Shown here in pieces: positions 29,565 to 60,959 of a stretch of 64,000 bases of DNA; position 1 is the stretch's first letter; each line of letters starts with the position of its first letter. The stretch spans positions 124,001 to 188,000 of the forward strand of contig WGNM01000001.1 in the NCBI GenBank assembly GCA_016124575.1. Direction: 5' to 3'. The translations under genes were made by a program, and so were the position numbers. The stretch comes from Cryomorphaceae bacterium (GTDB taxonomy: Bacteria; Bacteroidota; Bacteroidia; Flavobacteriales_D; Sanyastnellaceae). The notes below the pieces were generated by a model, which did no database searches, was not told the DNA's origin, and worked only from the letters and a program-made list of their open reading frames with translations.

Positions 29565-29572
29565 TACCTTCG
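29565..29572 (+). promoter_or_regulatory. -7-like element (TACCTTCG) for the DinB-like gene
   Basis: TACCTTCG, 19 bases before the ATG at 29592. Confidence 0.4.
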
Positions 29573-29591
29573 ATTTCAATTTTCCTCTCAC

Positions 29592-43622: not shown

Positions 43623-44891
43623 TTATTCTGTTACATAAAAAGGAAAATTAGCAGTGGCTACTTTGTCTTTCCCATCGGTGATATAAACAAACAAGCGGTA
43701 TGGGCCTGGTACTGATGGTGCGCTAAACTGCATGGTGCTCTGGTCTTGATAAGAAACGAGCCCTGATAAACTTTTCGGACGTGCTTCTTTGTCACCACCA
43801 GCCCTGATATCAGTGCTTTCAGGCAATATCTCCCACCTCACTTCGATTGGGTCACCATCGGGCTCTTCAACTTCAATTTTGGCTTGTCCACTCGATCCTG
43901 TGGCAAGCTTTACGCTCGATCGCAATGCTTCGTCTTCTAAGCTAAATGACTTCAAAATCGGCGCGCGGTTCGCTGGTTCCGCCTTTTTCCATGAGCGATG
44001 CAAGGCATCCAATGCCCCTGTTTGCTTGCCATCTTCTAAAAATACTCCGTACCATGTCGGGGTGGTTTCTTGCTTTTGACCCCATAAAAAGACGTATGAT
44101 CCAATGCAATGTTCACCATCGGCAGCTATACCTGTGCGGTAACGTGTTTCGTATGCCACTGCTTTCTCACTGCTGGTCTCCTCAAATGGCGCGCCCCAGG
44201 TGGTTTTAGGGACTTCCCAGTGTCCTGTTGGACCCCATTCCGTAACCATATATGGCTTGTCCCAACCAAACATGGCGATGTCGTACTTTAAATTCCCAAT
44301 ACCTCCGTAGGTGTTCACTCCAAGTATATCAATGCTGGGTGCACGCTCTTGAATAAGCTGCACTTCAGCAACGTCAATACCAGCGGTTACAGCACATGTA
44401 GGGTGATTCGGGTCGAGCTCATGTATCATGGCTGCTATCTTCTCTGTGGCATCCCAAACGTTCAAATCACTGTAAAAAAGGTCTACTTCGTTTCCAACAC
44501 CCCACATCAATAAGGCTGGATGGTCTTTAAACTCTTCTACTGCTTTCCTAAAACCAATTAACTGATCGGCAACTGCCCACTCGTCGCTGTAGTTAAAACC
44601 ATGGCGCTCATGTGCCATCCACAACCCCAACATAACGGTGAGTCCGTGGGCCTGGGCGTCGTCTAAAATGGCTTTGGCATTCTCTAATCCCCAAGTGCGC
44701 ACTGAGTTACCTCCGCACTCTACAACTACGTCCATGTGCACTGTGCCTCCCGCTCCGTTTACATAGTAAGGCTGTCCGCCCCGCAACATCTGCCAGCCAC
44801 TTGCGGTGCGCTGCAGCTCAACCTTCACCGGACCAGCAGACATCCCATTTATGGTTATTCCAAAAAGAAATAATATGATGGCTAATCTCAT
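43623..44891 (-). CDS. Secreted clan GH-A glycoside hydrolase (GH2/GH5-like TIM barrel)
   Basis: 422 residues. Signal peptide (1-19), short beta segment, then a TIM barrel with 'NSVRTWGLENAKAILDDAQAHGLTVMLGLWM', acid/base Glu135 in 'LLMWGVGNEVDLF', 'IDILGVNTYGGI', and nucleophile Glu218 in 'PYMVTEWGPTGHWE'. These are the two strand-4 and strand-7 Glu of clan GH-A. Residues ~310-422 form an Ig-like C-terminal domain. The exact CAZy family is uncertain. Last gene of the operon, overlapping the GH16 stop by 4 bp; beta-glucan oligosaccharides are the likely substrate by context. Confidence 0.87.
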   Translation of the reverse strand: MRLAIILFLFGITINGMSAGPVKVELQRTASGWQMLRGGQPYYVNGAGGTVHMDVVVECGGNSVRTWGLENAKAILDDAQAHGLTVMLGLWMAHERHGFNYSDEWAVADQLIGFRKAVEEFKDHPALLMWGVGNEVDLFYSDLNVWDATEKIAAMIHELDPNHPTCAVTAGIDVAEVQLIQERAPSIDILGVNTYGGIGNLKYDIAMFGWDKPYMVTEWGPTGHWEVPKTTWGAPFEETSSEKAVAYETRYRTGIAADGEHCIGSYVFLWGQKQETTPTWYGVFLEDGKQTGALDALHRSWKKAEPANRAPILKSFSLEDEALRSSVKLATGSSGQAKIEVEEPDGDPIEVRWEILPESTDIRAGGDKEARPKSLSGLVSYQDQSTMQFSAPSVPGPYRLFVYITDGKDKVATANFPFYVTE

Positions 44892-46666
44892 GGTACGAAT
44901 ATCTTGCGGACAACCAAATCTTGTCCTGATAGTAACTGAACGAAGTAGATTCCTGAAACCGCTGGTAAGTCGATTTGCGAATTCCCAGGAACAATTTTTT
45001 GCTGATGAATGTTCTGTCCATTAACATTGTAAACGCAAACGTCCCCTGCTATCGATGAGGATATCTGAAGTATGTCATTGCTCATGAATGCTTCAAATGC
45101 GATGTCTGTATTTTCAACAATGCCTATCGGCAGGCATGTGGCATCGTAAACAACTATGTCATCGATGTAAAAGGTATACCCCAAATTCTGAGGTCCAACT
45201 ACACGAAATTCAAGTTGATTGATGGTTGTTGGATCAATAGCAGGTGTAAAACTGCTTTCTTGATTGAATACCATTGTACTCCAAACATACGATGCCGTTG
45301 TGGTCTGCAAGTAGATAGATTGTGTGCCACCTGTGCCATCTGAAATGTTTTCGTTTTGCAAACGGACTTCAACCGTGCTTTCCGGTGGGGCGTTGGTGTA
45401 ATATTTGATGCCCAAAACTTTTTCGCCTGTGTGAAATGCTGTTGCATCGGTAATGCCTTCAACTCCCAATCGCAAGCGAGAAACTTCATTCGGTGGCAAA
45501 CTCCATCGCAGGCAAATTGAGCTGTTGTTAGTAGCATTTGGAGCTGGTACTGGTTCAATTCCCATTCCGCCATTAAAAGATGTCCAATGTGCTCCAAACT
45601 TGGTTTCAAAATCAGTTAAAACGCCAACACATTCATTCAAAACATGAACTGTTCTCTCCACAACACTGGTGCATCCGTTGTTCGAAATGGTCGCTTGCAA
45701 TACTTGATCTCCTGATGCTGTCCATACCAACTCGGCTGTATCACCACTGCTTACTGAAAACGCTGCACCTTCCGATGACCACGTTACTTCAGCTCCCATC
45801 GCGTTGTCGATCGAATAGGTATGTGTTTCTTCTGTCGGTGCGTATGCCGGACCAGAGATAATGGCCATCTCAGGCTCTTGGTATATGCGCACGTAATCAA
45901 CAAACATGCTCTGTGGAAACTGGGTTGTTTCATTGGGGTAACCGGGGAAATATCCTCCCACCGCAACGTTTAACAAGAGGTGAAATGCTTCGTCAAAATG
46001 CCATGGAAATGTGCCCAAGTTGCTTTGGGTGCGTATACTGTACAATTGATCATCGAAATACCAACGGATGGTGTCTTGCTTCCACTCTACGGCGTAGTTA
46101 TGGAAATCTTGATTCAATTGAAACGGGAGGGTGATGTTCTCGCCATTGTACTGGTTGTTCGGCCATTTTGCGCCAAAATGTATGGTGCCAAAGGTGGTTG
46201 ATGGCATGCTACCTATCAATTCGGTAATATCTATCTCTCCAGACAAGGGCCATCGTCCGTAAACCTCATCTTCTGGCAACATCCAAAATGCTGGCCACAA
46301 GCCCTGACCAGTGGGCATCTTGATACTGGCCTCAATGCGCCCTGAGGTAAATGATGCGAAATTTTTTGTCCGCAAGCGCGCAGATGTTACTTCCGGATTC
46401 CCTCCGTCATTAAACTGTGCTGTGATACGCAATAATCCGTCTTCAACGCCCAAATTCTCGGGCTGACCGGTGTACGATTGCATCTCTGCATTGCCCCAGC
46501 CACAAAGGTTCGGACAACCATCTCCCAATTGGATTTCCCACTTCGTGAGATCCAGTGAGGTACCATCAAACTCGTCGCTCCAAACCAGCTCTGAACATTG
46601 ATTCTGGGCACCAAGCTGAATGGCCATTACCGACAATCCAAGTATTATATTGAGTCTCTTCATCAT
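44888..46666 (-). CDS. GH16 endo-beta-glucanase with T9SS type A sorting domain
   Basis: 592 residues. Signal peptide, GH16 domain at about 25-270 ('LVWSDEFDGTSLDLTKWEIQ', 'GWGNAEMQSYTG', 'SGRIEASIKMPTGQGLWPAFWMLP'), with catalytic ExDxxE as E144-I-D146-I-T-E149 in 'GEIDITELIG', and 'LLLNVAVGGYFPGYP'. A PKD-like segment lies near 275-345, then a carbohydrate-binding-like beta domain (~350-510) and a type A sorting domain (~515-592). Laminarinases of GH16 cut internal beta-1,3 or mixed-linkage glucan. Translationally coupled on both sides (4-bp overlaps). Confidence 0.94.
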   Translation of the reverse strand: MMKRLNIILGLSVMAIQLGAQNQCSELVWSDEFDGTSLDLTKWEIQLGDGCPNLCGWGNAEMQSYTGQPENLGVEDGLLRITAQFNDGGNPEVTSARLRTKNFASFTSGRIEASIKMPTGQGLWPAFWMLPEDEVYGRWPLSGEIDITELIGSMPSTTFGTIHFGAKWPNNQYNGENITLPFQLNQDFHNYAVEWKQDTIRWYFDDQLYSIRTQSNLGTFPWHFDEAFHLLLNVAVGGYFPGYPNETTQFPQSMFVDYVRIYQEPEMAIISGPAYAPTEETHTYSIDNAMGAEVTWSSEGAAFSVSSGDTAELVWTASGDQVLQATISNNGCTSVVERTVHVLNECVGVLTDFETKFGAHWTSFNGGMGIEPVPAPNATNNSSICLRWSLPPNEVSRLRLGVEGITDATAFHTGEKVLGIKYYTNAPPESTVEVRLQNENISDGTGGTQSIYLQTTTASYVWSTMVFNQESSFTPAIDPTTINQLEFRVVGPQNLGYTFYIDDIVVYDATCLPIGIVENTDIAFEAFMSNDILQISSSIAGDVCVYNVNGQNIHQQKIVPGNSQIDLPAVSGIYFVQLLSGQDLVVRKIFVP

Positions 46667-48894
46667 CTTACTGTAAATGGTATTACCAGTGTGTCAATTT
46701 GAACGCTGAACTTACCAGGCTCCAACACCCACTTTAAATCTTGTCCTACAAATGCCAATTCCCTCACGGGGATGTCGAAGCGGACTTGCTGTTGCGAGCC
46801 CTCTGCCATTTCAATCCTGCGATAACCGCGTAAGCGTTTTACCGATGGTGTAATAGTCGCGACACTGTCTGAAACATACAATTGCACTACTTCTGCTCCT
46901 GCCCTATTTCCGGTGTTGCTTACTTCTACATCCACCCGCAGGGTGTCGTCCATTCCCAATTCGTTGCGCTCAATCTGCAAACCTGAATAAGCGAAAGTGG
47001 TGTAAGCTAAACCACTACCGAAGGTGTAAAGTGGATCAAAGGCGTTCTGCGAAAAATCAGTATCGATGCGATCGGTGTACTTGTGATCATACGTTGTGTG
47101 CGATGAGGCATGACGGGGATATGTAAACGGTAGCTTACCACATGGATTGAACTTGCCGAAAACTATGTCTGCAATGGCTTCTCCGCCGAAATCTCCCGGC
47201 AACATGGCCAACATAACTGAATTGATTTTCTCAATGGATGCTGGCAAAACACGCGGACGTCCTTCAATCAACAATACCAAACTCGGCAACTGCAAATAGT
47301 CTAGTTTGTCAATTACACGGGCTGATTGCAGTGGTATAGACAAATCTTCAATGTCACCAGGCTTTTCGGTATAGGTAGACTCTGAAATAACAGCAACAAT
47401 GCAGTCGTATTTCTGAGTCATGCGCATACTTAAAAATTCTTGCTCCGTAATCCATTGCACGTTGTCGCTGTGTTGCTGCAATGCTTCGTAAACCGTCGCT
47501 CTATCAGGGGTGTTGTACTGTGGATCCGCTCCTTGCCAGGTGCGTGTCCAACCGCCATTCAATATGTTCAAACTATTCGCTCCATCACCGATAACCAAAA
47601 TCTTCGCGCCTTCACTCAAAGGCAATAGGTTATCGTTCTTCAACAATACTATGCTTTCGTGGGCAGCTTTCAACGCCAATGCGTGATGTTCTTCACTTCC
47701 AAATTTTGGATAGTCAGCAATCGTTGGAACCCCTGTTTCAAACAACCCTAACTTGTACTTCATCTTTAAAATGCGACGCACAGATAGGTCCAATCGTTCT
47801 TCTGTCACGCGTCCTTCAAGAACTAGCTGCTTCAGCAATACTGGAAACTCGAGATCAACGGGTACCATGCTCATATCTATACCAGCGGCTAGAGACATCT
47901 CAATGGCATCTTTGTAGGTCGCAGCAACGCGATGTCGGGTTACAAGGTATTTTATGTCTTCCCAATCGGTTACTGCTACGCCCTCAAAACCGAGTTCGTT
48001 GCGCAAAAGGTCAGTGAGGATGTTCTTGTTAACGTGAACGGGTATTCCGTTTATCTCTCCTGAATTTATCATGATCGACATCGCCCCGGCATCCATTGCG
48101 CGTTCAAATGTCGGCAAGAAATACTCCCTCAATTGTCGCTCTGCTATCCATGCTTGGGTGCGATCTTTTCCGCTCAGGGTGACGCTATAGCCCATGAAAT
48201 GCTTCAGACAAGCGGCAACGTGTGCATCACCAATGGCGTCGCCTTGATAGCCTTGCACCATGGCTTCTCCAAAGTCAGATGCCAATTTGACATCTTCTCC
48301 AAAGGTTTCCCAAAATCGCGGCCAGCGCGGATCACGCGCTATGTCCAACACGGGTGAGAAATTCCAACGGATGCCAGATGCCCGCACTTCATAAGCCGAC
48401 ATCTCAGCCAACTGTCGAACCAACGCGGTGTCCCATGTGGCTGCAAGTGCTATCTGCTGTGGAAACAAGGTCGAACTGTCGGTATACGTCACTCCATGAA
48501 TGGCATCGATGCCATACAAAATGGGTATGCCAAGTCGTGTTTTCGATGCTTTCCGTTGAATGTCTCCAATCATGTCCAACCACTTCTCTCGAGGATATGA
48601 ATGTCCACCACAATTCAATATCGACCCGACATGCAATTGGTTGATTACAACGTCCAACTTGGCGGTATCAATGGTATGCGGCTCACTCAAGGCATAAGGC
48701 TCGCCGTAGCAAACCATGTCGAGGGTGAGCTGGGTCATCTGTCCGATTTTCTCATCTACAGACATCAATGCAAGCAGGGAGTCGACTTTTTTGTCGATTT
48801 CACTGACATCCGCCGCAGGCGCGTGCTCAGAATTTGGTGAGCATGAAAACATGAACCCGATAAAAAATACGAATATGAAATTGGACTTACTCAT
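46663..48894 (-). CDS. GH3 beta-glucosidase lipoprotein
   Basis: 743 residues. Lipoprotein signal (FIGFMFSC, Cys18). GH3 N-terminal barrel: 'VDSLLALMSVDEKIGQMTQL', 'LGIPILYGIDAIHGVTY', 'FSPVLDIARDPRWPRFWETFGED', 'AACLKHFMGYS', and nucleophile Asp310 in 'GFEGVAVTDWEDI'. The C-terminal sandwich has 'LPLSEGAKILVIGDGANSLNILNGGWTRTWQG', and a fibronectin-III-like end domain (~650-743). It should remove terminal glucose from beta-1,3/1,4 gluco-oligosaccharides released by the GH16 enzymes. As a lipoprotein it probably acts in the periplasm or on the surface. Confidence 0.95.
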   Translation of the reverse strand: MSKSNFIFVFFIGFMFSCSPNSEHAPAADVSEIDKKVDSLLALMSVDEKIGQMTQLTLDMVCYGEPYALSEPHTIDTAKLDVVINQLHVGSILNCGGHSYPREKWLDMIGDIQRKASKTRLGIPILYGIDAIHGVTYTDSSTLFPQQIALAATWDTALVRQLAEMSAYEVRASGIRWNFSPVLDIARDPRWPRFWETFGEDVKLASDFGEAMVQGYQGDAIGDAHVAACLKHFMGYSVTLSGKDRTQAWIAERQLREYFLPTFERAMDAGAMSIMINSGEINGIPVHVNKNILTDLLRNELGFEGVAVTDWEDIKYLVTRHRVAATYKDAIEMSLAAGIDMSMVPVDLEFPVLLKQLVLEGRVTEERLDLSVRRILKMKYKLGLFETGVPTIADYPKFGSEEHHALALKAAHESIVLLKNDNLLPLSEGAKILVIGDGANSLNILNGGWTRTWQGADPQYNTPDRATVYEALQQHSDNVQWITEQEFLSMRMTQKYDCIVAVISESTYTEKPGDIEDLSIPLQSARVIDKLDYLQLPSLVLLIEGRPRVLPASIEKINSVMLAMLPGDFGGEAIADIVFGKFNPCGKLPFTYPRHASSHTTYDHKYTDRIDTDFSQNAFDPLYTFGSGLAYTTFAYSGLQIERNELGMDDTLRVDVEVSNTGNRAGAEVVQLYVSDSVATITPSVKRLRGYRRIEMAEGSQQQVRFDIPVRELAFVGQDLKWVLEPGKFSVQIDTLVIPFTVR

Positions 48895-50044
48895 TGATAT
48901 CTATGCTTATATTTCTCATCTCTACCAATCCGCTACCTTTTGTTAAAACGATGAGCTGCTTCAATTTCGAAACGTTCAAATTCTTGTATCCTTTAAAATC
49001 TTCAAATGGTATACTCACACGTAACCATTGACTCTCGAGCATGGCCCCGTTCAAAGTTTTTGAATCCAACTCTATACTGGCGTTGGTGTAATCGTAGCTT
49101 TCAAGGGTCAAGGTGATCGGTAGCTTGGTAACTCCTGCATCGCTCAAATTTCGAATTTCAAAGCTCACTGCAGCGCGATCAGCCGTTGCCGACATGTTCG
49201 CAGCCTTCCAATTCGTCCAGCTCAATCCCCAGCGATACCAATAGCAGTCGTCGCAATCTTCCCACTGCATCCGAATAACTCCGTCGTTACCGATCTTGTC
49301 GAAATATCTTCCTTTGATGCTTCCTAGTCCCCAAATCTTTGTATCGGTAGATTTCATGAGGTCTACAGTTGCATTCGTAGACACCACACTTGGTGGAAAG
49401 ACTTTCTTGTTCGCAATCTGCCGATTAACCTGCGGCTCTATGCGAATATTGTCCATCAATAGGTTGCCAGACCCTTGCAACTCGATAACGAGCTGTTTGA
49501 TGTTCGTCAAGTCTATTCCGCATGTCTTGTAATCGAAAGCACTCAAGGGCAATCTGCACTCTTGCCACACGGTGTCAATGGGGTAACGCTCAATGCAGCC
49601 TGCACCGGCAACTCCGGCAGACATAGTAGTTCCGTAATCTTCAAGCAAGAAAATCATGGTCGGTATCGGCGATATTCCTTCCGCTGCGCGGATATTAAAA
49701 ACAAATTCACCGTATTCCATTACTTCAGACATGTCTTTGGCCTGCCAGCCCGACCATCCAATTCCAAAACCTACCCAGTCACATGTGGTTTTATTCCAAT
49801 TCAAATGCAAAACAGTTTGATGGGCGTTGTCCATCCGCACTTCCTGAAAGTCTTTGCAGGCGTCTTTCTCCAATCCCCAAACGTCGGTGGTTGAGTTCAA
49901 AAATACCTGCCGAGCACCAAAAAAATTGAATGCTTGCGACTTGGTGATCGGTGCAGCGGCGCTGTCGTCGAGGGTGAGGCTCTGAAAACCAATTCCACAC
50001 CCTGAAAGCAAAATCGATAAGATTAAAATTCTTACGGTGCCCAT
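48887..50044 (-). CDS. Surface lipoprotein with two duplicated carbohydrate-binding-like domains
   Basis: 385 residues with a lipoprotein signal (ILILSILLSGC, Cys16). The mature protein is two copies of one ~165-residue beta-sandwich: 'VWGLEKDACKDFQEV...WNKTTCDWVGFGIGWSGWQAKDMSEV...FVFNIRA' and 'IWGLGSIKGRYFDKI...WEDCDDCYWYRWGLSWTNWKAANMSAT...VSFEIRN', each ending in 'LTNIKQLVIELQGSGNLLMDNIRI' or 'VSKLKQLIVLTKGSGLVEMRNISI'. The fold resembles CBM11/CIA30-type glycan binders, but I cannot assign a family. It sits where a SusE/SusF-like surface glycan-binding protein would be expected. Overlaps the GH3 start by 8 bp. Confidence 0.85.
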   Translation of the reverse strand: MGTVRILILSILLSGCGIGFQSLTLDDSAAAPITKSQAFNFFGARQVFLNSTTDVWGLEKDACKDFQEVRMDNAHQTVLHLNWNKTTCDWVGFGIGWSGWQAKDMSEVMEYGEFVFNIRAAEGISPIPTMIFLLEDYGTTMSAGVAGAGCIERYPIDTVWQECRLPLSAFDYKTCGIDLTNIKQLVIELQGSGNLLMDNIRIEPQVNRQIANKKVFPPSVVSTNATVDLMKSTDTKIWGLGSIKGRYFDKIGNDGVIRMQWEDCDDCYWYRWGLSWTNWKAANMSATADRAAVSFEIRNLSDAGVTKLPITLTLESYDYTNASIELDSKTLNGAMLESQWLRVSIPFEDFKGYKNLNVSKLKQLIVLTKGSGLVEMRNISIDINE

Positions 50045-51084
50045 GGTGTGTATCTAGTGAAGTTGCAATAATCAAGTCCGTAACCTACAAACCCTGTCGT
50101 TCCCTCCCTTGCCAATAAGAGATATTCTATGCTCGCAATGCGATCTATGTTTTGCACTCCGGTGCCGTCGATGTTCCCAAAACCAGCTACTGTGCTGAGG
50201 TTAAACTCATCCAAGCGGATAGATACTACTTTCCATCCAAGCCAATCGACAACGATTTCTCGGTTGTAAGTACCCTCCGTAAAGCGGTCATAGGTGCCAT
50301 CCAAATTGTCATCTTCCTGAAGCCCTATCGATAGTCGGGTATTCCCATCTCCAAAACCATGCACCAGCATGTTCAGGTACACGTGCTGCGAATTGGTTGT
50401 TCCTACGTTGAAATAGGTTCCTGCTGGTGTCTGACTGCTATTGGCTGCCGAAATGCTGGTACCACAAATGAATACGCTGCTTTGGTTCAAATAGGTCATA
50501 CGCCAATGTCCCGACCCTTCTGGTGCCACGACCTGGATAAACGAGGGTGTGGCACTGCTCGGATCTTGCACAAAATAGGGTGTTGTCGCCAACTGATTTG
50601 TGGCGGGTGCTTCTGCAAATGATCCCCAACCTCCGGCTGTTTCAAAGTCTGAAATGAGGACGTCAATGTTGGCTTCCGGACGCACGGATTCAATGTATAT
50701 GGTATCTCCCCATAAGGTATCCGGATAACTGGCAAAGGTCATCATGGTCATGCAATTCTCCGCTTCAAACAAGGGCGCGAAGGTTATGGTGCCATCCCAA
50801 ACGGCTACGTCGTCGGCAATGCTGCGGTCACGACCTGTAATTTCTTTCTTAGCGCCGCTGGTCATGCCTATTATAGATATGGTCCAATCGGTGCGAATGG
50901 TCAACTCGCCATTGAAACGTACTTTTTGTCCCAATGAAAAATCAACGGTGTCGCGATCAGCACTCAAGGTTTCGATGACGTCAAATTCACCAAAAATATC
51001 TTGTAGCTCAGGTCCTTCGATCTTATCGGGACGACAGCCGGCCAATACGACCATCAATCCGAGCGTGAGGTAAATACTTTTCAT
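50032..51084 (-). CDS. Lipoprotein with Ig-like and glycan-binding-like domains
   Basis: 350 residues from the ATG at 51084 (MKSIYLTLGLMVVLAGC, Cys17); the start shares one base with the upstream stop (TGATG). Residues ~45-145 look like an Ig-type domain ('VRFNGELTIRTDWTISIIGMTSGAKKEITG'), and ~150-350 a beta-sandwich with 'VLISDFETAGGWGSFA', 'YLNMLVHGFGDGNTRLSIGLQEDDNLDG', 'WLGWKVVSIRLDEFNLS' and 'IEYLLLAREGTTGFVGYGLDYCNFTRY', similar in style to surface glycan-binding proteins of PULs. The domain order (Ig-like then binding) resembles SusE, but this is inference. Confidence 0.82.
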   Translation of the reverse strand: MKSIYLTLGLMVVLAGCRPDKIEGPELQDIFGEFDVIETLSADRDTVDFSLGQKVRFNGELTIRTDWTISIIGMTSGAKKEITGRDRSIADDVAVWDGTITFAPLFEAENCMTMMTFASYPDTLWGDTIYIESVRPEANIDVLISDFETAGGWGSFAEAPATNQLATTPYFVQDPSSATPSFIQVVAPEGSGHWRMTYLNQSSVFICGTSISAANSSQTPAGTYFNVGTTNSQHVYLNMLVHGFGDGNTRLSIGLQEDDNLDGTYDRFTEGTYNREIVVDWLGWKVVSIRLDEFNLSTVAGFGNIDGTGVQNIDRIASIEYLLLAREGTTGFVGYGLDYCNFTRYTPWAP

Positions 51085-52853
51085 CAGAAAAACATGTTGT
51101 AGGTAACAATTACTTGATTCCACTTGTAGTTAGATCCAACAATGTTGCGATCTTCTATGTTCGAAGTGCGCGCCTGAATCAATAAGTGGTTGTTCTGTGT
51201 GAACGAATATTTAATTCCACCAAACCAGGTCTGATCCATCATATCGATGTCGACCTCGGTGTAATCGGTAATGTATGAGTATTGATCTCGAACGCTCAAA
51301 TACTCATTTCCTTTGGCACTCAGCAACACCAATCCTCCCTGCAAGTAGAAATGATCAGATAGTTCATGCGAAATGGATGCTTCTATAAAATTCGAAGCAA
51401 GGGTTACGGCTCCTATTCCGCTCAAACTGGCGATGTCTGATGTCAATCCATCTCGGTTGGTAGATTCTGAATGGATGTGCAGCTCTCCCATGGTCTCCTT
51501 CTTTCCTTCCCAAATGTTATGCAAACCAAGTCCGGCTCGTACATCTGCCAAAAAGAAGTTGCGGTAGGTGTTGATGCCTTCCCCACTCACTTCGGTGAGG
51601 TAGGCTACGTCGGCATCTATGTATGCGCTGCTTGATGAGTCGGCCTTAAACGATATACCTCCGCGAATACCTTGTCTGTTCGGTGTGGCTGCCCCATACG
51701 GCAATACGTTCGAATAGGCTGGATTGAAGGTTTGCAAAGAAGCAGAAATGGTTGATTGATAGACGTTTGGGTCTTGATACAAGTCAAACACGCTCAATGC
51801 ACGTGGCGTTTCTTGGTTGGTTTGAAATGTAAAGACTTCTGGTGCTGTGCTGTAGTTCACTTGGCGTGATTGTGCACCCGGACTTCTGAATCCTGCTTTG
51901 ACGTGAATGAATTCGCCGTAAAACTTCAATTTGCTGCTGGCGTCTACTTTGCGTATTCCCAATTGCAAAAATACGTCTCCTGTATCTGCCGGGGCGCCTT
52001 CTTTCTCTTTGTATTTGGTGCCCGACATTCCCATTTCTCCATATAAAACCAACGGTTTTGATGTGAAAGGCATCACCTCAAAATTAAGGGTCTGCACGGT
52101 GATAGAAGTAGTAGCATCTGAAAATTGTGCGGTCTCGGCGATCTCGAATAGACTTACATAACGATAACCAATATGTCCCAATTCTTTGCGGTGGAAATCA
52201 AACTGCCCTCCGCCTAACATGCGGTCTGGCGTAAAGAAATAATCCGATTGTCGATTTTTGGTTATGAATCCATAAACGTCCAATCTATTCCCTTCACCTG
52301 GCAGTCGCAATTTAAAGTCTGTCTCAGCACCTTGCTGCCTCCATCGGTTGTCGCGATAAAAATGCTCGTAATCAACGATGTCGCGATAAACATGCAATGG
52401 AGACAATCTGCCATTCAACAAATCACCACCGGTGTTGTAAAGGGTAAATGGCGTTAGCTTCACATCCAAGTCGCCAACGCGGTAGCGCACTTTTCCTTTT
52501 ATGACGCCTCTCGCATACAATTCGCGGAAACCAAAGCCAATACCTGCTCCCCAAAATCCGTCGAGCTCGCTGCGCACGCGTGTGAGTACTTTGATTTCTG
52601 TTGATGCATTCGGACGCAAACGGAATCCCAAATCGAAAAGGGCATACCCTTGAATCTCTCGTCGGGCATTTACGCTATCTGCCGCCAATGTGTCTCCCGC
52701 AAACACTCCTCCTTCATATCGGTCTCCTTGTGCCTTATTGGTCTGCATTACAAATCGTCCAGAGCCATACACACTGAACTTATCATCCTGCCCAAAAAGG
52801 GACGATGTAAGCAGCAATAAGCTGAAAAGTATATAGTTAAATTTCATCTTCAT
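51084..52853 (-). CDS. Outer-membrane beta-barrel protein of the glucan operon
   Basis: 589 residues. Signal peptide (MKMKFNYILFSLLLLTSSLFG), no plug and no CarboxypepD-regulatory domain, repeated alternating hydrophobic strands ('GYALFDLGFRLRP', 'KVRYRVGDLDVKLTPFTLY', 'LYGEMGMSGTKY', 'IEASISHELSDHFYLQGGLVLL', 'WFGGIKYSFTQNNHLLIQARTS') and C-terminal '...QVIVTYNMFF', with the terminal Phe used for barrel insertion. It is not a TonB receptor and I do not recognise the family. By position it could be the oligosaccharide porin of the locus. One-base overlaps with genes on both sides. Confidence 0.85.
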   Translation of the reverse strand: MKMKFNYILFSLLLLTSSLFGQDDKFSVYGSGRFVMQTNKAQGDRYEGGVFAGDTLAADSVNARREIQGYALFDLGFRLRPNASTEIKVLTRVRSELDGFWGAGIGFGFRELYARGVIKGKVRYRVGDLDVKLTPFTLYNTGGDLLNGRLSPLHVYRDIVDYEHFYRDNRWRQQGAETDFKLRLPGEGNRLDVYGFITKNRQSDYFFTPDRMLGGGQFDFHRKELGHIGYRYVSLFEIAETAQFSDATTSITVQTLNFEVMPFTSKPLVLYGEMGMSGTKYKEKEGAPADTGDVFLQLGIRKVDASSKLKFYGEFIHVKAGFRSPGAQSRQVNYSTAPEVFTFQTNQETPRALSVFDLYQDPNVYQSTISASLQTFNPAYSNVLPYGAATPNRQGIRGGISFKADSSSSAYIDADVAYLTEVSGEGINTYRNFFLADVRAGLGLHNIWEGKKETMGELHIHSESTNRDGLTSDIASLSGIGAVTLASNFIEASISHELSDHFYLQGGLVLLSAKGNEYLSVRDQYSYITDYTEVDIDMMDQTWFGGIKYSFTQNNHLLIQARTSNIEDRNIVGSNYKWNQVIVTYNMFF

Positions 52854-54823
52854 TAGAAAAATACCTTGAGTTCAATTGTGGTCTCGGTGCCACTGATCTT
52901 ATCTTCTACAAAATGGCTGTCTGCCTGATTGAATCGTTTGTGGCGGATATACAATCCTGAATGCTCCGACATTTTAATGTCGACACCAAGTCCTATCGAA
53001 TGGGATGTTTGATCCAAATATCCTGGCGCCCCAGTCGTCGCTCCTGCATAACTGCTTCCAGGAATGGCTGTGCCTTCCAATCCGTAATCGGCAAATGATG
53101 CCGCCGCGCTAACATTGGCACCAGCCAAATTTCCATCAACATCAAAATAATAGAGGTTGTTGGTCTGGTCGTTGGCTTGAATGCGCTCCAATCCGTATGC
53201 GAGGTCAACACCAAACCAATCGTTGATCGGGATGATGATGTCGAACTCATGATATCCGGTGCGCAAATAAGCCTGATCGTTCAATTTAGGAACGATCGAA
53301 ATCTTGTCGCCTACGCTGCCCAAAGAGCCGAGGTAAAGGACATATATGTCTTGTTTTCCGATCTCAAATTTGTGCTTCAATTGGAATTGGAAGGTGTTGA
53401 AGGCGAGCTTCTGAAAGGGCAATCCTGCTGTATCTACATCTGTTATGAAGACGTCTTCAGCTACGCCACGATAAAAGGATGTCCAACGTCTGTACGGACC
53501 GATTCCAGCTGCGAAAGGAGCAAATCGTGAAAGCGCCAACCCGTTGATCTTATGTCCGAATGATAAGCGATTGGTCGTTCTCTCCATCTCTTGAGAAACC
53601 ATGTTCCCGAAGTTTATAGTGGTATTCTTAAAATTGAACCACATGTTCACTGATCCCCCTTGTCTGTTGTTCAAGATCTGACCAACGTCGGTAATGCTGC
53701 CCACAAAATTTGAAGCACCTCCTCCTCCAGAAACGTTCTGCAACTGTCCGTCGCCCAATATCTGGGTGTTGAAACTCAAGAAATTGCCGTAGTAGTTGAC
53801 AAACTGTGGCGAAAGTCGAAAGACTTCAAACTCAATCGGAACTTTTGGTAACAATTCTTTGAGGCGCAGATTCAAACGAATGCCTTCTCCCCAGCCTTCA
53901 TTTTGGACTGTCGAATACAATTGTCCTACCCCTCCCTCTGCATTGAATGCTATCTTGTCGTTCTCATAACTGGCAGAAAGGGTGTTGATGCTGATTCCAC
54001 CTCTTTCCGTTGCAATGGAATCAAGGTAAACGACGTAATTCATGCTGTTCACTCCAACCATCCCTTTTGTAAAGGTTTTGTTGATACGTCCACCGGCGGT
54101 GAAATTCGGACTTTCAGCACCCAGCACTGCGGTTGTTGGAGTTTTACCATACAATAGTCGCGCATTGATGCCGTATGGCAACTCGTCAAGATCTATGAGC
54201 ACTCCTTTAAAGGCCTGCATCGCCCATCTGCTCTCACGCGAGATGTCGCCGTATTGCATGTAATTCTGAGCGCGATCGGCCCCTTGAGCGTTTCCTTCCC
54301 AGGCCCATCGTTCAAACAGGCTGAATCGGTTATAACCTACAAAACTCGAAAACACCATGCCCGATACATCGGTCCAGTTAATACCGCCTATCTGAAATCC
54401 CAAACGGGCAAAAGAGGTGGGCACGGTGCCATAAAGACTAATTCCTAAGTTCAAGTTCGATGGCACTTGTCCAGGTATCCCAACTGCGTTAGAATAGAGG
54501 GCGTAATCCATGTTGATGGCTGCGCCGCCTCCCGGACGAATACCGGCTGTCATGAGCAAGATGGGCGGATCTCTGTATACGTCTCCTAAGCCAAACACAT
54601 ACGGTGGTGTGTTGGCAAACTGATTGTCTGGCAATACGCGATACCCCGCATCTAAATTCCTATTGAAGCCATAAAAACGATAATATCCTCCCACCGAAAA
54701 TCCGTTCTTGCGCTGAATAACTTTATAGCGATTCAAGGTTTCTGGCTTCCAAGACAAAGTGTCGTCTTGCGCTACTCCTGCGTATGAGGATAAAATGGCG
54801 AGTATTAGTAAAAGCTTCCTCAT
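52853..54823 (-). CDS. Second outer-membrane beta-barrel protein of the glucan operon
   Basis: 656 residues. Signal peptide (1-18), then 'FSVGGYYRFYGFNRNLDAGY', 'INMDYALYSNAV', 'FARLGFQIGGINWTDVSGMVFSSFVGYNRF' and many further amphipathic strands, with a C-terminal '...ETTIELKVFF' barrel end. Gly-rich and aromatic throughout, no plug domain, no TonB box seen. It is not clearly homologous to the 589-residue barrel beyond general style. The start overlaps the symporter stop by 4 bp, and the stop shares one base with the next start. A channel for glucan fragments or a scaffold for surface enzymes are both possible. Confidence 0.85.
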   Translation of the reverse strand: MRKLLLILAILSSYAGVAQDDTLSWKPETLNRYKVIQRKNGFSVGGYYRFYGFNRNLDAGYRVLPDNQFANTPPYVFGLGDVYRDPPILLMTAGIRPGGGAAINMDYALYSNAVGIPGQVPSNLNLGISLYGTVPTSFARLGFQIGGINWTDVSGMVFSSFVGYNRFSLFERWAWEGNAQGADRAQNYMQYGDISRESRWAMQAFKGVLIDLDELPYGINARLLYGKTPTTAVLGAESPNFTAGGRINKTFTKGMVGVNSMNYVVYLDSIATERGGISINTLSASYENDKIAFNAEGGVGQLYSTVQNEGWGEGIRLNLRLKELLPKVPIEFEVFRLSPQFVNYYGNFLSFNTQILGDGQLQNVSGGGGASNFVGSITDVGQILNNRQGGSVNMWFNFKNTTINFGNMVSQEMERTTNRLSFGHKINGLALSRFAPFAAGIGPYRRWTSFYRGVAEDVFITDVDTAGLPFQKLAFNTFQFQLKHKFEIGKQDIYVLYLGSLGSVGDKISIVPKLNDQAYLRTGYHEFDIIIPINDWFGVDLAYGLERIQANDQTNNLYYFDVDGNLAGANVSAAASFADYGLEGTAIPGSSYAGATTGAPGYLDQTSHSIGLGVDIKMSEHSGLYIRHKRFNQADSHFVEDKISGTETTIELKVFF

Positions 54824-56511
54824 GCGATTCCCATTGTGCTAAATACAATCCAAACCACTGCAACAGCCACAAGCAAAATGATGCTCAACAAAATGTCGTT
54901 GCGCACCGAATTCCCCATTCCTGTTATTACCGATCCGCTGCCAACTGTGAGGTGGTCTATCTTCTCACTTTCTTCCTGGGTGGATGTTAAACTGATGCCA
55001 AACAAGACAAATGAGCATATCATAAACAGCAGCAATGCGAAGTGAAGGAAGTTCATGTCGACGATCATCGATAATATGGAGTCGTGCGGAAATTGAAAAT
55101 AAATCTCTCCCGCTTGGTTGGGTGTCTTCAAAAACTCAAAAACCAACCTTCCAACGCCGATGATAAATCCTGACCACAATGCCCACAGTGCCCCGCGGGA
55201 ATTCACTCGGCGCGAAAGTATTCCAAACAAGAATACTGCTGCTATTGGCGGTGAAATATAGGCTTGTATGCTTTGCAGGTATTTGAACAATCCACCTTCC
55301 GACATCATGTTCTCCATCAATGGTATCCAAAGCAATCCTATCACAACCAAAATGGCTGTTGAAAGCTGTCCAACCAAAACGAGTTTCCTATCTGATGTTT
55401 CAGGTCTCCAAATCTTAAAAAAGTCGAATGTGAAAAGTGTCGAACAAGAATTAAAGACGCTGCTCAGTGAGCTCATCAAGGCAGCCAACAATCCTGCTGC
55501 TACTAGTCCTCGTAACCCGCTTGGCAAATAGTTCTTTACCATAGATGGCAATGCTGCGTCGTGCACCACTTTTCCTGATTCGTCGAGCAATAAGGTGCCG
55601 TCTTGGGTGTGCAAGGCAAATGCGACAACGCCTGGAAGTACAAACAAGAAAATAGGTAGCAATTTCAAAAATGCCGCAAAAATAGTCCCTTTACGAGCGT
55701 TCGATTGATCTTTTGCCGACAATACGCGCTGCACGATAAACTGATCGGTACACCAATACCAAACGCCTAAAATAGGCGCTCCGAAAAGTATACCTGTCCA
55801 CGGATAATTGGTGTCTGACGATGGACGCCACAAATTCAAATAGTCGCCAGATTTGCTGCCGGCACCAGCCGAAATGGAAGCTCGCAACTCCGACCATCCG
55901 CCGAGTTCTGAAATCCCAAAGTATGTAACTACCACAGCTCCGCCAATTAAGACGAACATCTGAACCATGTCGGTATAAACTACGGCACGCAAACCTCCAA
56001 AAATGGTATACACACCGGTGGCTACAACCACCAAAACGGCTCCTGTCCAAAACTCTATGCCCAGCAATTGTTCGAAAACCAAAGCTCCCGCAAAAATGGT
56101 TACAGATATCTTTGTTAAGATGTACGCGACAATTGATATGATACTCAAATAGTTACGCGCTCCTCTTGCATATCGCTTTTCAAGAAACTCGGGCATGGTG
56201 AAAACGCCACTGCGGAGGTAGAATGGGACAAAAAACCATCCCAGCAGCAACAATATCAGTGCTGCAAGTATCTCAAATTGTCCGTTTACAAAATCTCCTC
56301 GCGATCCTGATCCAGCCAATCCTATCAGGTGCTCGCTGCCTATGTTGGAGGCAAACAAGGAAGCACCAATGACAAACCAACCTGAATTTTTTCCACCCAA
56401 GAAATAACCAGAAGAAGAGACTTCTTTCCGTTCTTTTTTGGTAACAAAAAATGCTACCGCAAAGACGAGGATGAAGTATGCAAAAACGATTGCGTAATCT
56501 AAAATGCTCAT
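54820..56511 (-). CDS. Sodium/solute symporter (SSS family, SGLT-like)
   Basis: 563 residues with about 14 transmembrane helices. SSS signatures: 'YFLGGKNSGWFVIGASLFASNIGSEHLIGLAGSG', 'YLRSGVFTMPEFLEKRY', 'TGVYTIFGGLRAVVYTDMVQMFVLIGGA', 'YWCTDQFIVQRVLSAKD' and 'GLVAAGLLAALMSSLSSVFNSCSTLFTFDFF' with the Na2-site Ser residues. The 'NIGSEHLIGLAGSG' and 'WCTDQFIVQR' motifs are those of sugar-transporting members such as vSGLT. It should bring glucose or short oligosaccharides into the cytosol with Na+. Second gene of the operon, 2 bp after the first. Confidence 0.94.
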   Translation of the reverse strand: MSILDYAIVFAYFILVFAVAFFVTKKERKEVSSSGYFLGGKNSGWFVIGASLFASNIGSEHLIGLAGSGSRGDFVNGQFEILAALILLLLGWFFVPFYLRSGVFTMPEFLEKRYARGARNYLSIISIVAYILTKISVTIFAGALVFEQLLGIEFWTGAVLVVVATGVYTIFGGLRAVVYTDMVQMFVLIGGAVVVTYFGISELGGWSELRASISAGAGSKSGDYLNLWRPSSDTNYPWTGILFGAPILGVWYWCTDQFIVQRVLSAKDQSNARKGTIFAAFLKLLPIFLFVLPGVVAFALHTQDGTLLLDESGKVVHDAALPSMVKNYLPSGLRGLVAAGLLAALMSSLSSVFNSCSTLFTFDFFKIWRPETSDRKLVLVGQLSTAILVVIGLLWIPLMENMMSEGGLFKYLQSIQAYISPPIAAVFLFGILSRRVNSRGALWALWSGFIIGVGRLVFEFLKTPNQAGEIYFQFPHDSILSMIVDMNFLHFALLLFMICSFVLFGISLTSTQEESEKIDHLTVGSGSVITGMGNSVRNDILLSIILLVAVAVVWIVFSTMGIA

Positions 56512-56513
56512 GC

Positions 56514-57908
56514 TTAGTTGGTTGTTGTGCCGAACACAACTTGCTTATGAGCAACTTTATCTCCTGCGGTTAAGCGCAATACGTAAACACCTGATGCCAA
56601 ACCTTCAACAATTGCTGAGTTAAGACCTTTGGTAGATAAGGTTTGGACAATGCGACCAGATAGATCAATCACTTCCAAGAACTCAACTGCACCTGACGCA
56701 TCCCAAGTAACCTGCATGGCTGTTGTTGCCGGGTTAGGAAATGCATTGAAGGTGAAATCCGATTCTTCAGAAACACTAACCTCAGTTACCAATTTCAAAT
56801 TATCAATGTAAAAGGTCTCTGCCAATGGCTCTCCTGGAGCAATTAACAAAACGAAATTGGTCGCATTTGGCAATCCTGTCATTGCTGCTAAGTCCATTGT
56901 CAATGTCTCCCATGTGTTACTCGCTGTTGAAGTCAGGTTGAAGAGCCCGAGCTCCAATCCAAAATTGTCTTGAATAGAAAAGACAATGTTTGTAGGGGCA
57001 TTCGGATCGTAAAAATCAAAAGACAAGGTGGTGAGCGGCAAGATGTTCAAGGCTCCGTTGAAGTCGCCAACAATTACATCGTCAGTTGCTCCTCCATTGC
57101 GAGCATACTCCAATACGTTCCCTCCAACTGCTAAATCGGGATTCGGGAAGATGCTCAAACGTCCGTCTTTGTATTCTACATCAAAGCGATCGTTCTCACA
57201 ATCAGCATCCATCAACATTTCAAGGTCGGTGTTTGCTTCGGTGCAAGCTTCGGTAACCCGGGCAGGGCCCGACAAGTTGTCGAAGTAATAGTTCTCGTTG
57301 ATGTTCACTCCTGGATTAAACAACAACACCATTTGATCTACGTCGTTGTTAGCAGTATTGGCATCTGGCCACCATCCTGAGTTTGATGGATCCATCCACG
57401 GCTGACCCGTCAATGAAAAGGTAAGCGTCTCCCATTGGCCACCCGTGGTAGTCACCGCCTGATATTCGCTATGTCGACCTTGTGGATATCCTCCGAGTGA
57501 CAATAGATTGTTCTGCAATGATATCTGGATCGTAATGCCCGGTACCGGCGCAAATACATCCATGGTCATTTGATTGGCTCCCGAAAGATGTCCACTCAAA
57601 TCAGCCAAATCTCCACAATTGATTAAGATAACATCGTATGTCTCTGAAGCATTCCGCGTATACTGCGCACACATGTCGCTTGAGTTCACGCCATTAGCGC
57701 CTGGATTTTCAATATACTGAAGAAAGGTTCCGTGCCAACCTGGCCATATTGTCCCCCCTATTCCGTTCTGCAACTGGTCAGGAAATGGAACATTCAATCC
57801 ATAAGTCACGTTCCGAACATCGTCAAATGTGTCGTACATAACCTGTGAAGTCGTTGTTTGAACCATTGCAAACAAACATGAAGCTAAAATTGTAAATCTC
57901 TTAATCAT
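56514..57908 (-). CDS. T9SS-exported protein with tandem carbohydrate-binding-like domains
   Basis: 464 residues, first gene of the glucan operon. Signal peptide (MIKRFTILASCLFAMVQTTTS). Two beta-sandwich domains at about 24-200 and 225-375, each with 'MTMDVFAPVPGITIQISLQNN...GGQWETLTFSLTGQ...VDQMVLLFNPGVNINENYYFDNL' or 'LSFDFYDPNAPTNIVFSIQDN...NTWETLTMDLAAM...NFVLLIAPGEPLAETFYIDNL'. A type A sorting domain is at ~388-464 (AFPNPATTAMQVTW...VIDLSGRIVQTL...GVYVLRL). It probably holds glucan at the cell surface, but no catalytic residues are visible. Confidence 0.88.
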   Translation of the reverse strand: MIKRFTILASCLFAMVQTTTSQVMYDTFDDVRNVTYGLNVPFPDQLQNGIGGTIWPGWHGTFLQYIENPGANGVNSSDMCAQYTRNASETYDVILINCGDLADLSGHLSGANQMTMDVFAPVPGITIQISLQNNLLSLGGYPQGRHSEYQAVTTTGGQWETLTFSLTGQPWMDPSNSGWWPDANTANNDVDQMVLLFNPGVNINENYYFDNLSGPARVTEACTEANTDLEMLMDADCENDRFDVEYKDGRLSIFPNPDLAVGGNVLEYARNGGATDDVIVGDFNGALNILPLTTLSFDFYDPNAPTNIVFSIQDNFGLELGLFNLTSTASNTWETLTMDLAAMTGLPNATNFVLLIAPGEPLAETFYIDNLKLVTEVSVSEESDFTFNAFPNPATTAMQVTWDASGAVEFLEVIDLSGRIVQTLSTKGLNSAIVEGLASGVYVLRLTAGDKVAHKQVVFGTTTN

Positions 57909-58118
57909 AAAGGTTCTAGATTTGGGTGAGACAAGGTAACACGAAAGTCATACATACAGTTAAAATAGACTACATCAGAATTTCATCTACTAAATTCTTT
58001 ACTACATCATTGGTACTTCATTCGGTCTTAAAGCTACTACTAACATGCTGAAATCAAGTTTTTTATCAGATTTTATTAAAACTTATCATTGAATTGTTAT
58101 TCATCTTATCTTAGTAGC
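57909..58118. promoter_or_regulatory. Divergent control region of the glucan locus
   Basis: 210 bases between the operon and its regulator. ACTACATCA occurs twice in direct orientation (57969-57977 and 58001-58009), 32 bp apart or about three helix turns, with the related CATCTACTA between them. TATCTTAG (58107-58114) ends 4 bases before the regulator ATG. On the minus side TACCTTGT lies near 57932-57939. Candidate regulator binding sites. Confidence 0.45.
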
Positions 58119-60959
58119 ATGCGCTACAATCTATTTCAACTCTCGTTCCTTACCATGTGCGTTTTGATGTATCAAACGATGTGGTCTCAACAAGCCGGTA
58201 GCCCGAATATTATCAATTTCTCGAAGTCCGACTTCCAAGGTGGTTCCCAAACCATGGAAATTCAGCAACTGCCCAATGGCTATATCTGCGCAGCAAACAA
58301 CCATGGTTTGCTGATTTTTGACGGTACTTCGTGGCAATGCTTCCGTCAACCAAATCAAACCATCATGAGGTCAATTGAGGTGGTGGGAGAGCGTATTTAC
58401 TGCGGCGGACAAAATGAACTCGGCTACTTTACGTTCGAAACGGGGAAAGCAAAATACAACTCGCTACTTCACTTACTGCCGCCTTCTCTTTCGAATATCG
58501 GCGATGTCTGGCAAATTCAAACGGTAAATGACAAGTTAATTTTCCGGACGTCTGAGCAGATATTCAGCATTGAAAATGAGAAACTTACTCTCCTCGCTGA
58601 AAACGGTGAGTTTAAAAGCTCGTTCTTCTTCGCACAGTCGTTCTTCTTCCAAAAAGACAATGATGTATTCTCCCTCGAAGATGGCAAGGCTTTTATATCG
58701 CTTGAAGCGGATGCCATTGTGAAGGGGTGCATCGTTAGCAATGCCGATACGGTAATCGTAACCGAAAAATCTGGATTGCTAAATTTGTCAAAAAACAATG
58801 CTGCTGCCGCTTTCTCTGGCTCCCTCCACACGCTGCTTTTGGATGCTGGCGTAAATGCGTTCTATGCCATCGATCAGGGATACGCTTTCTGCACGGCGCG
58901 TGGTGGTGTAATTCTGTCTGACCAAAACCTTGTCGTAACAGGGGCTTACACCATTGAAGAAGGTATGCAACGAAATGATGTACTCTGCCTTTTTAGTGAT
59001 GATCACGGCGATCTGTGGGCAGGTACAAGCAATGGTATCGATTTTATTACGCAAAGCTCTCCGTTTCGATATATCCATCCTGACGGACGTTTATTGGGTG
59101 CCGGGTACGCTACTGCCCTATTCAATGGTAGAATGTACTTCGGGACCAACAATGGTGTCTATGAAACATATTACAATCACCTCGCGAATCAGGATTTTCA
59201 ACTGCTCAATGGCACGGTCGGACAAGTTTGGGGTCTTAAAAACATTGCTGATCTGCTGTGGGTCGCACATCATGAAGGACTATTCTACTACAATGGTACA
59301 ACTCTGAAAAATGTTTCGGGTTTAAGTGGTGTGTGGGATGTCCAAGAAATACCCGGACATGTTGATCATTTGCTGGTGGGACATTACAATGGTATCAGTT
59401 TAATTGCGCTTGAAAATGGTGAATGGAGGTTGAAAAAGTCGTTCGATCAACCCGCACAGTCTGCTCGTATATTCGCCCGTGAAAACAACAACACATGGTG
59501 GATATCTCACCCTTACGTTGGTTCATGGCGCTTCTCTATCAATACGTCGAATTGGGAGATGGAGTCAATAAAATTCTATGGTGAAGACGAGGGGTTTCCT
59601 TCAAACCTCCACATCCACGTAGCAAACATCGCTGATGAAATGGTTTTTACGGCCGAAAACGGACTGTTCGCCTACGATTCGAAAAGCGATCGCATTGTGG
59701 AATTACCCGACTTCAATAACCTTTTCACTGGTAACCAACGTTTCCTCCGTCTGTACGATAGCCCCAACAATGATGTATGGTTTATTACTGAAAAAGAAGC
59801 AGGCATCATCGCTATCGAAGAGTCTGCGCTTGTGAAATCGGCCAATAAACACACGATAACTCCTCTAAAATCAAAACTCGTTGGTGGTTTCGAATTGATT
59901 GCCTTTGTAAATAACGAATCTGTGATCGTTGGCGCTGAAGATGGTTTCATTCACGTCAATTACCCGCAACTGGAAAAGGTATACCTGGAAGGCCCGAAAA
60001 TCTCTATCCGGAGGGTTGAGGTGATTCACAAATCCGACTCTACTATATTCGACGCTCTGGCTAACAATGATTCGTCGTTCACGGTGTCGTACGATCAACG
60101 GTCGCTGAGATTTGGATTTACGAATACAAGCTTCCATATCGCCAAAGACATCGATTACCAGTTTAAGTTGGAGAAATTTGATGTCGATTGGGTCAATTGG
60201 GACAACAGCTTCTCGAAAGAATATACCAACCTGCGCGCAGGTGATTACACGTTTAATGTCCGCGCTGTATCAGCCGATGGCACTGAACTTTCTCGCTCTA
60301 GCATCCCATTCACTGTCTTACCTCCTTGGTACATGACAACAACAGCCATCGTGGGTGGTGTGCTGCTCTTTATCTTCCTCATTACGCTGTTCGTATGGGC
60401 GCCAAAACGAAAGTATGAGCGTGAGAAATTGGCTATTGTGACCATGAAAGAAAAGGAATTTGATGAACACAAGGCGCAAAGTGACTATGTGATCGATAAA
60501 CTAAAAAATGAAAAGCTGGAGGTCGAAATCGGTCACAAAAACAAGGAACTGGCGTCGGCAACAATGCACTTGGTGCAAAAGGGACAAATACTGCAGAGCA
60601 TACGCGATAGCTTGCAAGAATTTGATCCTTCGTCAGGCGATAAAGCGAAAAAAGAACTGCGCCGTTTGGTGAAGTTGATCAATGATGATATCAAACTAGA
60701 CAACAACTGGGATCAGTTTGAATTGCATTTTGATCAGGTTCACGTGGATTTCCTAAAACGTCTGCGAGCGGCATACCCAAAGCTTACTCCCAACGATCAC
60801 AAGCTCTGTGCATACCTACGCATGAATCTGTCAACAAAAGAAATAGCGACCATCCTCAACATCTCTGTACGTGGTGTTGAAATTAGTCGCTATCGTCTTC
60901 GCAAAAAGTTAGATCTCGATACCAACGATAATCTAACGGAGTTTATCACAAACCTCTAA
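58119..60959 (+). CDS. Propeller - Y_Y_Y - LuxR-type one-piece regulator of the glucan locus
   Basis: 946 residues from the ATG at 58119; a TTG ten codons upstream is less likely. Signal peptide, a periplasmic two-component-regulator propeller (to ~640, with 'LWAGTSNGIDFI', 'MYFGTNNGVYETYYN', 'LWVAHHEGLFYYNG'), Y_Y_Y domain (~655-735, 'DIDYQFKLEKFDVDWVNWDN...AGDYTFNVRAVSADG'), one transmembrane helix (~755-775), a cytosolic coiled coil and a C-terminal LuxR-type helix-turn-helix ('LTPNDHKLCAYLRMNLSTKEIATILNISVRGVEISRYRLRKKLDL'). It has no kinase or receiver. Such proteins are thought to sense oligosaccharides in the periplasm and control neighbouring genes directly from the membrane. Transcribed away from the operon. 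Confidence 0.92.
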   Translation: MRYNLFQLSFLTMCVLMYQTMWSQQAGSPNIINFSKSDFQGGSQTMEIQQLPNGYICAANNHGLLIFDGTSWQCFRQPNQTIMRSIEVVGERIYCGGQNELGYFTFETGKAKYNSLLHLLPPSLSNIGDVWQIQTVNDKLIFRTSEQIFSIENEKLTLLAENGEFKSSFFFAQSFFFQKDNDVFSLEDGKAFISLEADAIVKGCIVSNADTVIVTEKSGLLNLSKNNAAAAFSGSLHTLLLDAGVNAFYAIDQGYAFCTARGGVILSDQNLVVTGAYTIEEGMQRNDVLCLFSDDHGDLWAGTSNGIDFITQSSPFRYIHPDGRLLGAGYATALFNGRMYFGTNNGVYETYYNHLANQDFQLLNGTVGQVWGLKNIADLLWVAHHEGLFYYNGTTLKNVSGLSGVWDVQEIPGHVDHLLVGHYNGISLIALENGEWRLKKSFDQPAQSARIFARENNNTWWISHPYVGSWRFSINTSNWEMESIKFYGEDEGFPSNLHIHVANIADEMVFTAENGLFAYDSKSDRIVELPDFNNLFTGNQRFLRLYDSPNNDVWFITEKEAGIIAIEESALVKSANKHTITPLKSKLVGGFELIAFVNNESVIVGAEDGFIHVNYPQLEKVYLEGPKISIRRVEVIHKSDSTIFDALANNDSSFTVSYDQRSLRFGFTNTSFHIAKDIDYQFKLEKFDVDWVNWDNSFSKEYTNLRAGDYTFNVRAVSADGTELSRSSIPFTVLPPWYMTTTAIVGGVLLFIFLITLFVWAPKRKYEREKLAIVTMKEKEFDEHKAQSDYVIDKLKNEKLEVEIGHKNKELASATMHLVQKGQILQSIRDSLQEFDPSSGDKAKKELRRLVKLINDDIKLDNNWDQFELHFDQVHVDFLKRLRAAYPKLTPNDHKLCAYLRMNLSTKEIATILNISVRGVEISRYRLRKKLDLDTNDNLTEFITNL

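Follow-up and report, generated by a model that had tools for sequence, protein, structure and literature searches.

The operon at positions 43623-57908 of the window, i.e., the whole 64,000-nucleotide stretch that was analyzed, is probably a β-1,3-glucan (laminarin-type) locus in which a paralogous pair of plug-less outer-membrane barrels and two lipoproteins replace SusCD and act independently of TonB, transport itself being inferred. The enzyme families, the gene order, the lack of a plug and of SusD, the barrel models and the exclusion with a laminarin SusCD locus were all obtained computationally. The standard route for glycans across the outer membrane in Bacteroidota is SusCD, which is used to find and count loci of this kind; in this Flavobacteriales bacterium, as in many of its uncultured relatives, a gene set for the predicted use of laminarin has a conserved new barrel pair at the place where SusCD would be expected.

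Organization of the operon

Nine open reading frames (ORFs), all on the minus strand, were confirmed in this region, where they are joined by overlaps of 1, 4, 4, 4, 8 and 13 bp and by one 2-bp gap. This arrangement is that of the original prediction, with the start of P5 moved from GTG 51123 to ATG 51084. The listed GTG codon results in a 40-bp overlap with the preceding gene, while the ATG codon gives a 1-bp overlap and a protein of 350 aa. Close homologues of P5 are 349-351 aa long, and ATG 51084 is the likely true start. In the order of the operon, and followed by two neighboring genes, the features are:

56514..57908, minus strand: P9, secreted protein carrying a C-terminal signal for type IX secretion (TIGR04183, 3.3e-14)
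54820..56511, minus strand: P8, SGLT-type sodium/sugar symporter of the inner membrane (PF00474, 6.8e-91)
52853..54823, minus strand: P7, barrel A, predicted plug-less outer-membrane β-barrel of 656 aa (AlphaFold2 model)
51084..52853, minus strand: P6, barrel B, predicted plug-less outer-membrane β-barrel of 589 aa (AlphaFold2 model)
50032..51084, minus strand: P5, lipoprotein and probable surface protein (LAGC lipobox, charged residues after the cysteine)
48887..50044, minus strand: P4, lipoprotein with CBM30-like and SGBP_B-like domains (PF21582, 3.2e-15; PF18329, 0.0011)
46663..48894, minus strand: P3, GH3 β-glucosidase type enzyme with a lipobox (PF00933, 3.4e-74)
44888..46666, minus strand: P2, laminarinase of family GH16, bearing a signal for type IX secretion (PF00722, 4.5e-22; TIGR04183, 1.4e-7)
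43623..44891, minus strand: P1, GH158 endo-β-1,3-glucanase (PDB 9oro, 6.8e-101; 6pal, 6.5e-79)
58089..60959, plus strand: divergent regulator with propeller repeats, a Y_Y_Y domain and a LuxR-type HTH (PF07495, 2.1e-9; PF07494, 1.5e-4)
61008..63113, minus strand: second GH16 gene, past the regulator (NCBIfam GH16-type models)

The GerE match of the regulator (1.7e-4) fell below the cut-off. Close relatives likewise have a homologue of this regulator and the second GH16 gene next to the operon. Upstream of P9, the pattern expected of a Bacteroidota-type promoter was absent from the operon strand.

Enzymes, symporter and lipoproteins

The hydrolase that had been placed only in clan GH-A could now be typed. 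Residues 11-420 of P1 align to 9oro and residues 24-421 to 6pal, which amounts to full-length GH158 similarity; P1 is thus assigned to GH158 by sequence, while its activity on β-1,3-glucan is inferred. P1 lacks a type IX signal and carries an ordinary signal peptide, which makes a location in the periplasm probable. The assignments of a GH16 enzyme, a GH3 enzyme and an SGLT-like symporter were corroborated both by Pfam (PF00722, PF00933 and PF00474, respectively) and, for P2 and P8, by structures in the PDB: P2 is of the laminarinase type (3azx, 7.8e-58), and the best match of P8 was SGLT1 (7.6e-113), with vSGLT matching as well. For P3, the closest NCBIfam model was that of an exo-β-1,3/1,6-glucosidase, with 500.7 bits, under its cut-off of 1330. 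The C-terminal sorting domain TIGR04183, typical of type IX cargo, scored above the cut-off in both P2 and P9, and P9 further displayed a weak likeness to a surface glycan-binding domain (SGBP_B_XBD, E 0.019, below the cut-off).

The P4 profile weakly reached carbohydrate-binding module (CBM) structures in the PDB (2c24 and 1wmx). Homologues of P5 share a conserved C-x-K-D/E-type start, with a charged stretch past the cysteine. In Bacteroidota, a charged stretch after the lipoprotein cysteine is often a surface-export signal. The P5 alignment profile had no relative in the PDB; this, together with the absence of a SusD match in Pfam, argues at the level of sequence comparison against P5 being a SusD protein.

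Taken as a set, GH158, GH16 and GH3 would fit β-1,3-glucan, with laminarin as the substrate predicted from the enzyme families. Hydrolases for one glycan, a CBM30-like lipoprotein and a Y_Y_Y regulator are co-located here as they are in SusCD-type loci. Nevertheless, as had been claimed for the operon, none of its nine proteins matched Plug or SusD in Pfam, or SusC in NCBIfam.

The two barrels

No family in Pfam or NCBIfam matched barrels A and B of the window, and their relatives (52 and 48 aligned) gave only a few weak OMP_b-brl and DUF matches. The Plug domain was matched neither by the window barrels nor by any member of the two barrel alignments. When the barrel A and B profiles were compared with PDB sequences, matches remained at chance level, with no porin among them. 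A and B are distant paralogues of each other (profile match probability 95.7, E 9.6e-9).

Structural models were obtained with AlphaFold2, with a pLDDT of 78.5 for barrel A, where the first strand begins at residue 42, and of 87.8 for barrel B, where it begins at residue 26. DSSP assigned 22 long strands to the predicted model of barrel B and 22-23 to that of barrel A. In line with the original prediction of two plug-less barrels, the modeled strands of both proteins start directly past the signal peptide, and no N-terminal plug is predicted; the intervening stretch, inspected by eye for a TonB box, is short and variable. The most conserved motifs of the family sit in long inter-strand segments, namely 152-202 and 338-386 in barrel A and 319-392 in barrel B.

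In fold comparison, barrel B came closest to AlgE and OprD-type proteins (Z ~18, rmsd 5-6 Å, ~300 residues); TonB-dependent transporters aligned to it through their barrels over 375-393 residues at 4.1-5.0 Å, with 4.1-4.7 Å for OprC and FecA. Barrel A matched usher and TonB-dependent barrels, including the SusC protein BT1763 (5t3r_D, Z 14.8, 388 residues, 4.5 Å). All alignments to TonB-dependent transporters begin past the plugs of the transporters. We also considered that the barrels could be derived SusC proteins that had lost their plug. Profile comparison with SusC revealed no similarity for either barrel, which speaks against such an origin without excluding a more distant one.

Other candidate transporters in the genome

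A plug or SusD in any of the nine proteins, or a separate glucan SusCD pair elsewhere in the genome, had been named beforehand as findings that would refute the proposal, and none of these was found. The only PF07980 SusD match of the genome and its only SusC over the TIGR04056 cut-off are adjacent on contig C44, in a locus (L101:94-18959) that also holds two GH13-type genes, a CotH-domain type IX cargo protein and an NrtR-type regulator, and which is an α-glucan (α-amylase) locus. A single low-scoring SusD similar to that of C44 was found in most genomes of the family. A whole-genome search with PF00722 detected only two GH16 genes, P2 and the gene at 61008..63113, both within the window, and one of the two GH3 genes of the genome is P3 of the operon. 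Plug proteins number about 25 in the genome. Within the window, a TonB-dependent receptor (845 aa; 27114-29651, in the region 26272-29651) adjoins a lipoprotein gene that by eye resembles DUF4249; it was rejected as the glucan importer, as this neighbor is an unrelated lipoprotein gene and no glycan enzymes are near.

Conservation of the cassette

We define the cassette as barrel A, barrel B, the lipoprotein and the CBM protein. Among the 61 family genomes sampled first, 38 had barrel A and 37 had barrel B. A contig scan with a 9-row alignment yielded 103 loci, 80 of which were kept, from Flavobacteriales, Crocinitomicaceae and other Bacteroidota assemblies. Distinct barrel A sequences amounted to 104, and 45 of their loci were flank-complete (>6 kb on each side). 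Barrel A was followed by barrel B and then by the lipoprotein in 45/45 of these loci, and next by the CBM protein in 43/45, an arrangement of barrels and lipoprotein that is far beyond chance. GH158 was encoded in 42/45, GH3 in 36/45 and GH16 in 32/45, and there was no SusD (0/45) and a SusC-like ORF in a single locus (1/45).

Beyond this group, barrel A was detected in 10/80 genomes of another, GC-rich order of the phylum. Barrel B and the lipoprotein are present in all four loci read from that order (L226-L229), and GH158 or the CBM protein in three; in L228, a SusC-like ORF lies ~5 kb upstream. In an even draw over the phylum, the cassette was rare (5/395 genomes).

Some cassettes (L104, L105, L091, L111, L113, L114 and L230-L237) retain A, B, the lipoprotein and the CBM protein and are flanked by sulfatases, in L104 also by a sulfatase-maturing enzyme. 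They usually hold a diverged GH158-like protein (~40-48% identical), and this form of the cassette probably serves a sulfated glycan.

Exclusion between the cassette and laminarin-type SusD

The distribution of the cassette was compared with that of high-scoring SusD proteins (PF07980, E<1e-18) across the 114 genomes of the family. Whether a locus contained a sulfatase, as judged with a model built from verified sulfatases, decided its type, and three genomes with a cassette remained untyped. High-scoring SusD occurred in 54/114 genomes and the cassette, in any form, in 56/114. The sulfatase-free cassette and high-scoring SusD were never found together: 37 genomes had the cassette, 54 had SusD, 23 had neither and none had both (Fisher p 2.3e-14). 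The 12 genomes that did combine a cassette with high-scoring SusD all contained the sulfatase-associated form.

As the threshold of E<1e-18 was chosen after the first 61 genomes had been seen, the pattern was tested on the other 53. In these held-out genomes, none had both, eight had the cassette, 35 had SusD and 10 had neither (p 4.9e-5), with a p of only 0.06 when any form of the cassette was counted. The Fisher p values overstate independence because the split follows genera; a genus-level test on the first sample gave p 0.03. Further, the assemblies are mostly incomplete metagenome bins. Within genera g14 and g18, different species have either the cassette or SusD, and this one-or-other pattern suggests replacement. 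The cassette is carried by five genomes with completeness of 88-99% (G006, G022, G025, G036 and G053) in which SusD goes unmatched and no SusC exceeds the TIGR04056 cut-off.

The loci with high-scoring SusD that were read have the look of a classical laminarin locus (GH3, GH16, SusC, SusD, a PKD lipoprotein and GH16); a second class of high-scoring SusD, untyped, exists in some genera. The reading of the operon as a β-glucan locus without SusC/SusD, in which the two barrels could form an import route, is supported, not least by this family-wide exclusion with laminarin SusCD, which is stronger evidence than that on which the reading was originally based.

Proposed mechanism and alternative explanations

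In the mechanism that we favor, P2 and P9 would leave the cell through the type IX system to bind and cut the glucan at the cell surface, and P4 and P5 would hold the resulting fragments. Oligosaccharides would pass down their gradient through A and B by facilitated diffusion, in a maltoporin- or chitoporin-like manner and without TonB. In the periplasm, GH158 and GH3 would degrade them to glucose, which the Na+ symporter would import, keeping the gradient steep, and the divergent membrane-spanning regulator would sense the glucan. Localization, oligosaccharide passage, the lack of energy coupling and induction are inferences; the absence of a plug and the exclusion pattern are the grounds on which TonB-free import by the barrels is inferred. 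As an open 22-strand pore would be leaky, something must close it, and by analogy with the constriction loops of porins the inter-strand segments 319-392 of B and 152-202 and 338-386 of A are candidates; their position in the pore was not seen. The evidence is evenly poised on a broader proposal, that of a SusCD-independent, TonB-independent family of Bacteroidota importers, composed of paralogous 22-strand plug-less barrels and surface lipoproteins, which would be evolutionarily interchangeable with SusCD and retargeted via sulfatases to at least one further substrate.

The barrels might import glucan and yet be energized, with a plug or the contact to TonB contributed by another protein, by internal barrel segments or by the lipoproteins. 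The fold alignment of A and B with TonB-dependent transporter barrels (BT1763; OprC and FecA) would be compatible with energized import, as would the concentration of the most conserved motifs in the long inter-strand segments. We nevertheless regard it as unlikely, given that no plug was found by profile or model, that the signal peptide is followed at once by the strands, from residue 26 or 42, that the cassette comes without a plug gene and that SusC profile similarity is lacking. Another view is that A and B do not import glucan at all and rather anchor or assemble surface enzymes, or fulfill another role at the surface, with glucose that is released outside the cell entering through general porins. 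Type IX signals are indeed present on GH16 and P9, the lipobox of GH3 means that this enzyme too could be surface-located, and the symporter takes a monosaccharide. However, a periplasmic location is probable for GH158, the cassette and a SusCD importer locus exclude each other, which would be expected if the cassette were an importer, and the A-B order is kept even where sulfatases replace the enzymes; a role other than import seems quite improbable to us. It is harder still to sustain that β-glucan fragments also enter through the α-glucan SusCD or through an orphan TonB-dependent transporter, the barrels being mere accessories. The genome does encode one SusCD and ~25 plug proteins that could be invoked, but the SusCD sits with α-amylases, cassette genomes without any SusCD over the cut-off exist, and the TonB-dependent receptor of the window has no glucanase neighbor, both GH16 genes lying in the window. 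We consider this last explanation very improbable.

Comparison with known systems

Facilitated import by the barrel pair, the reading we prefer, can be set against several described systems. Laminarin SusCD loci (Formosa, PMC6246565; Bacteroides GH158 loci, PMC7157763) share with the operon a surface GH16, a periplasmic-type GH3, glycan-binding lipoproteins and a dedicated regulator, and in some cases GH158, but the operon has neither SusC nor SusD and encodes instead two plug-less barrels without a family match. A plug-less barrel likewise stands beside sugar enzymes in the case of LamB, chitoporin, ScrY and OprD/Occ from Proteobacteria, and of the AlgE exporter. Those proteins have 16-18 strands and are encoded by a single gene, whereas the operon encodes a paralogous pair, each modeled with ~22 strands, along with two lipoproteins, and no sequence relation to the window barrels is detectable. 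TonB-dependent transporters resemble A and B in their ~22 strands, with the barrel part superposing over 350-390 residues; in contrast to A and B, they possess a plug, and A and B show no SusC profile similarity.

Co-located CAZyme genes without susCD, as in the operon, have been set aside as ‘CAZyme clusters’ (PMC10108472), a term that marks only the absence of susCD, whereas the operon has a specific conserved outer-membrane module at that place. Further, for one Crocinitomicaceae strain, not known to have or to lack the cassette, an absence of PULs has been reported (PMC12313589). These two studies show how a barrel system could be overlooked. A laminarin-induced porin of Formosa (PMC6246565) belongs to a nitrogen cluster and was set aside as another case, without sequence comparison. 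In the open-access literature, no match was found for SusCD-independent uptake or for a laminarin porin pair, although this absence is no proof of novelty. The operon would thus be a glycan utilization locus with an outer-membrane module undescribed in the libraries searched, and possibly a new importer class.

If the barrels import laminarin, which represents a globally large carbon flux, genomes that seemingly have no such loci would still have the function. A TonB-free route also raises the question of an energized lid-and-barrel in some species and an open barrel pair in close relatives. In addition, two barrel families become available for annotation.

Variation around the cassette

By eye, many cassettes have an NrtR/NUDIX-type-like gene in place of the propeller regulator of the window; near L192, L193, L097, L096 and similar loci, an ORF of 247-257 aa resembles the NrtR/NUDIX-type regulator of C44. 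Likewise by eye, L226 and L227 have an adjacent LacI-type gene. The full bacterial cassette was also present in L163, a record labeled Euryarchaeota, which is probably a mislabeled metagenome bin.

After GH3, a small lipoprotein-like protein of 274-277 aa starting with CKQSNPEDVLGR is encoded in L095, L097, L098 and L120 and is conserved in many cassettes; the one such protein checked had no Pfam match. Near some cassettes without the SGLT-type symporter, an MFS sugar transporter type gene was observed (L098:2343-3761 and L107:2288-3697), as though one transporter type could stand in for the other at the inner membrane.
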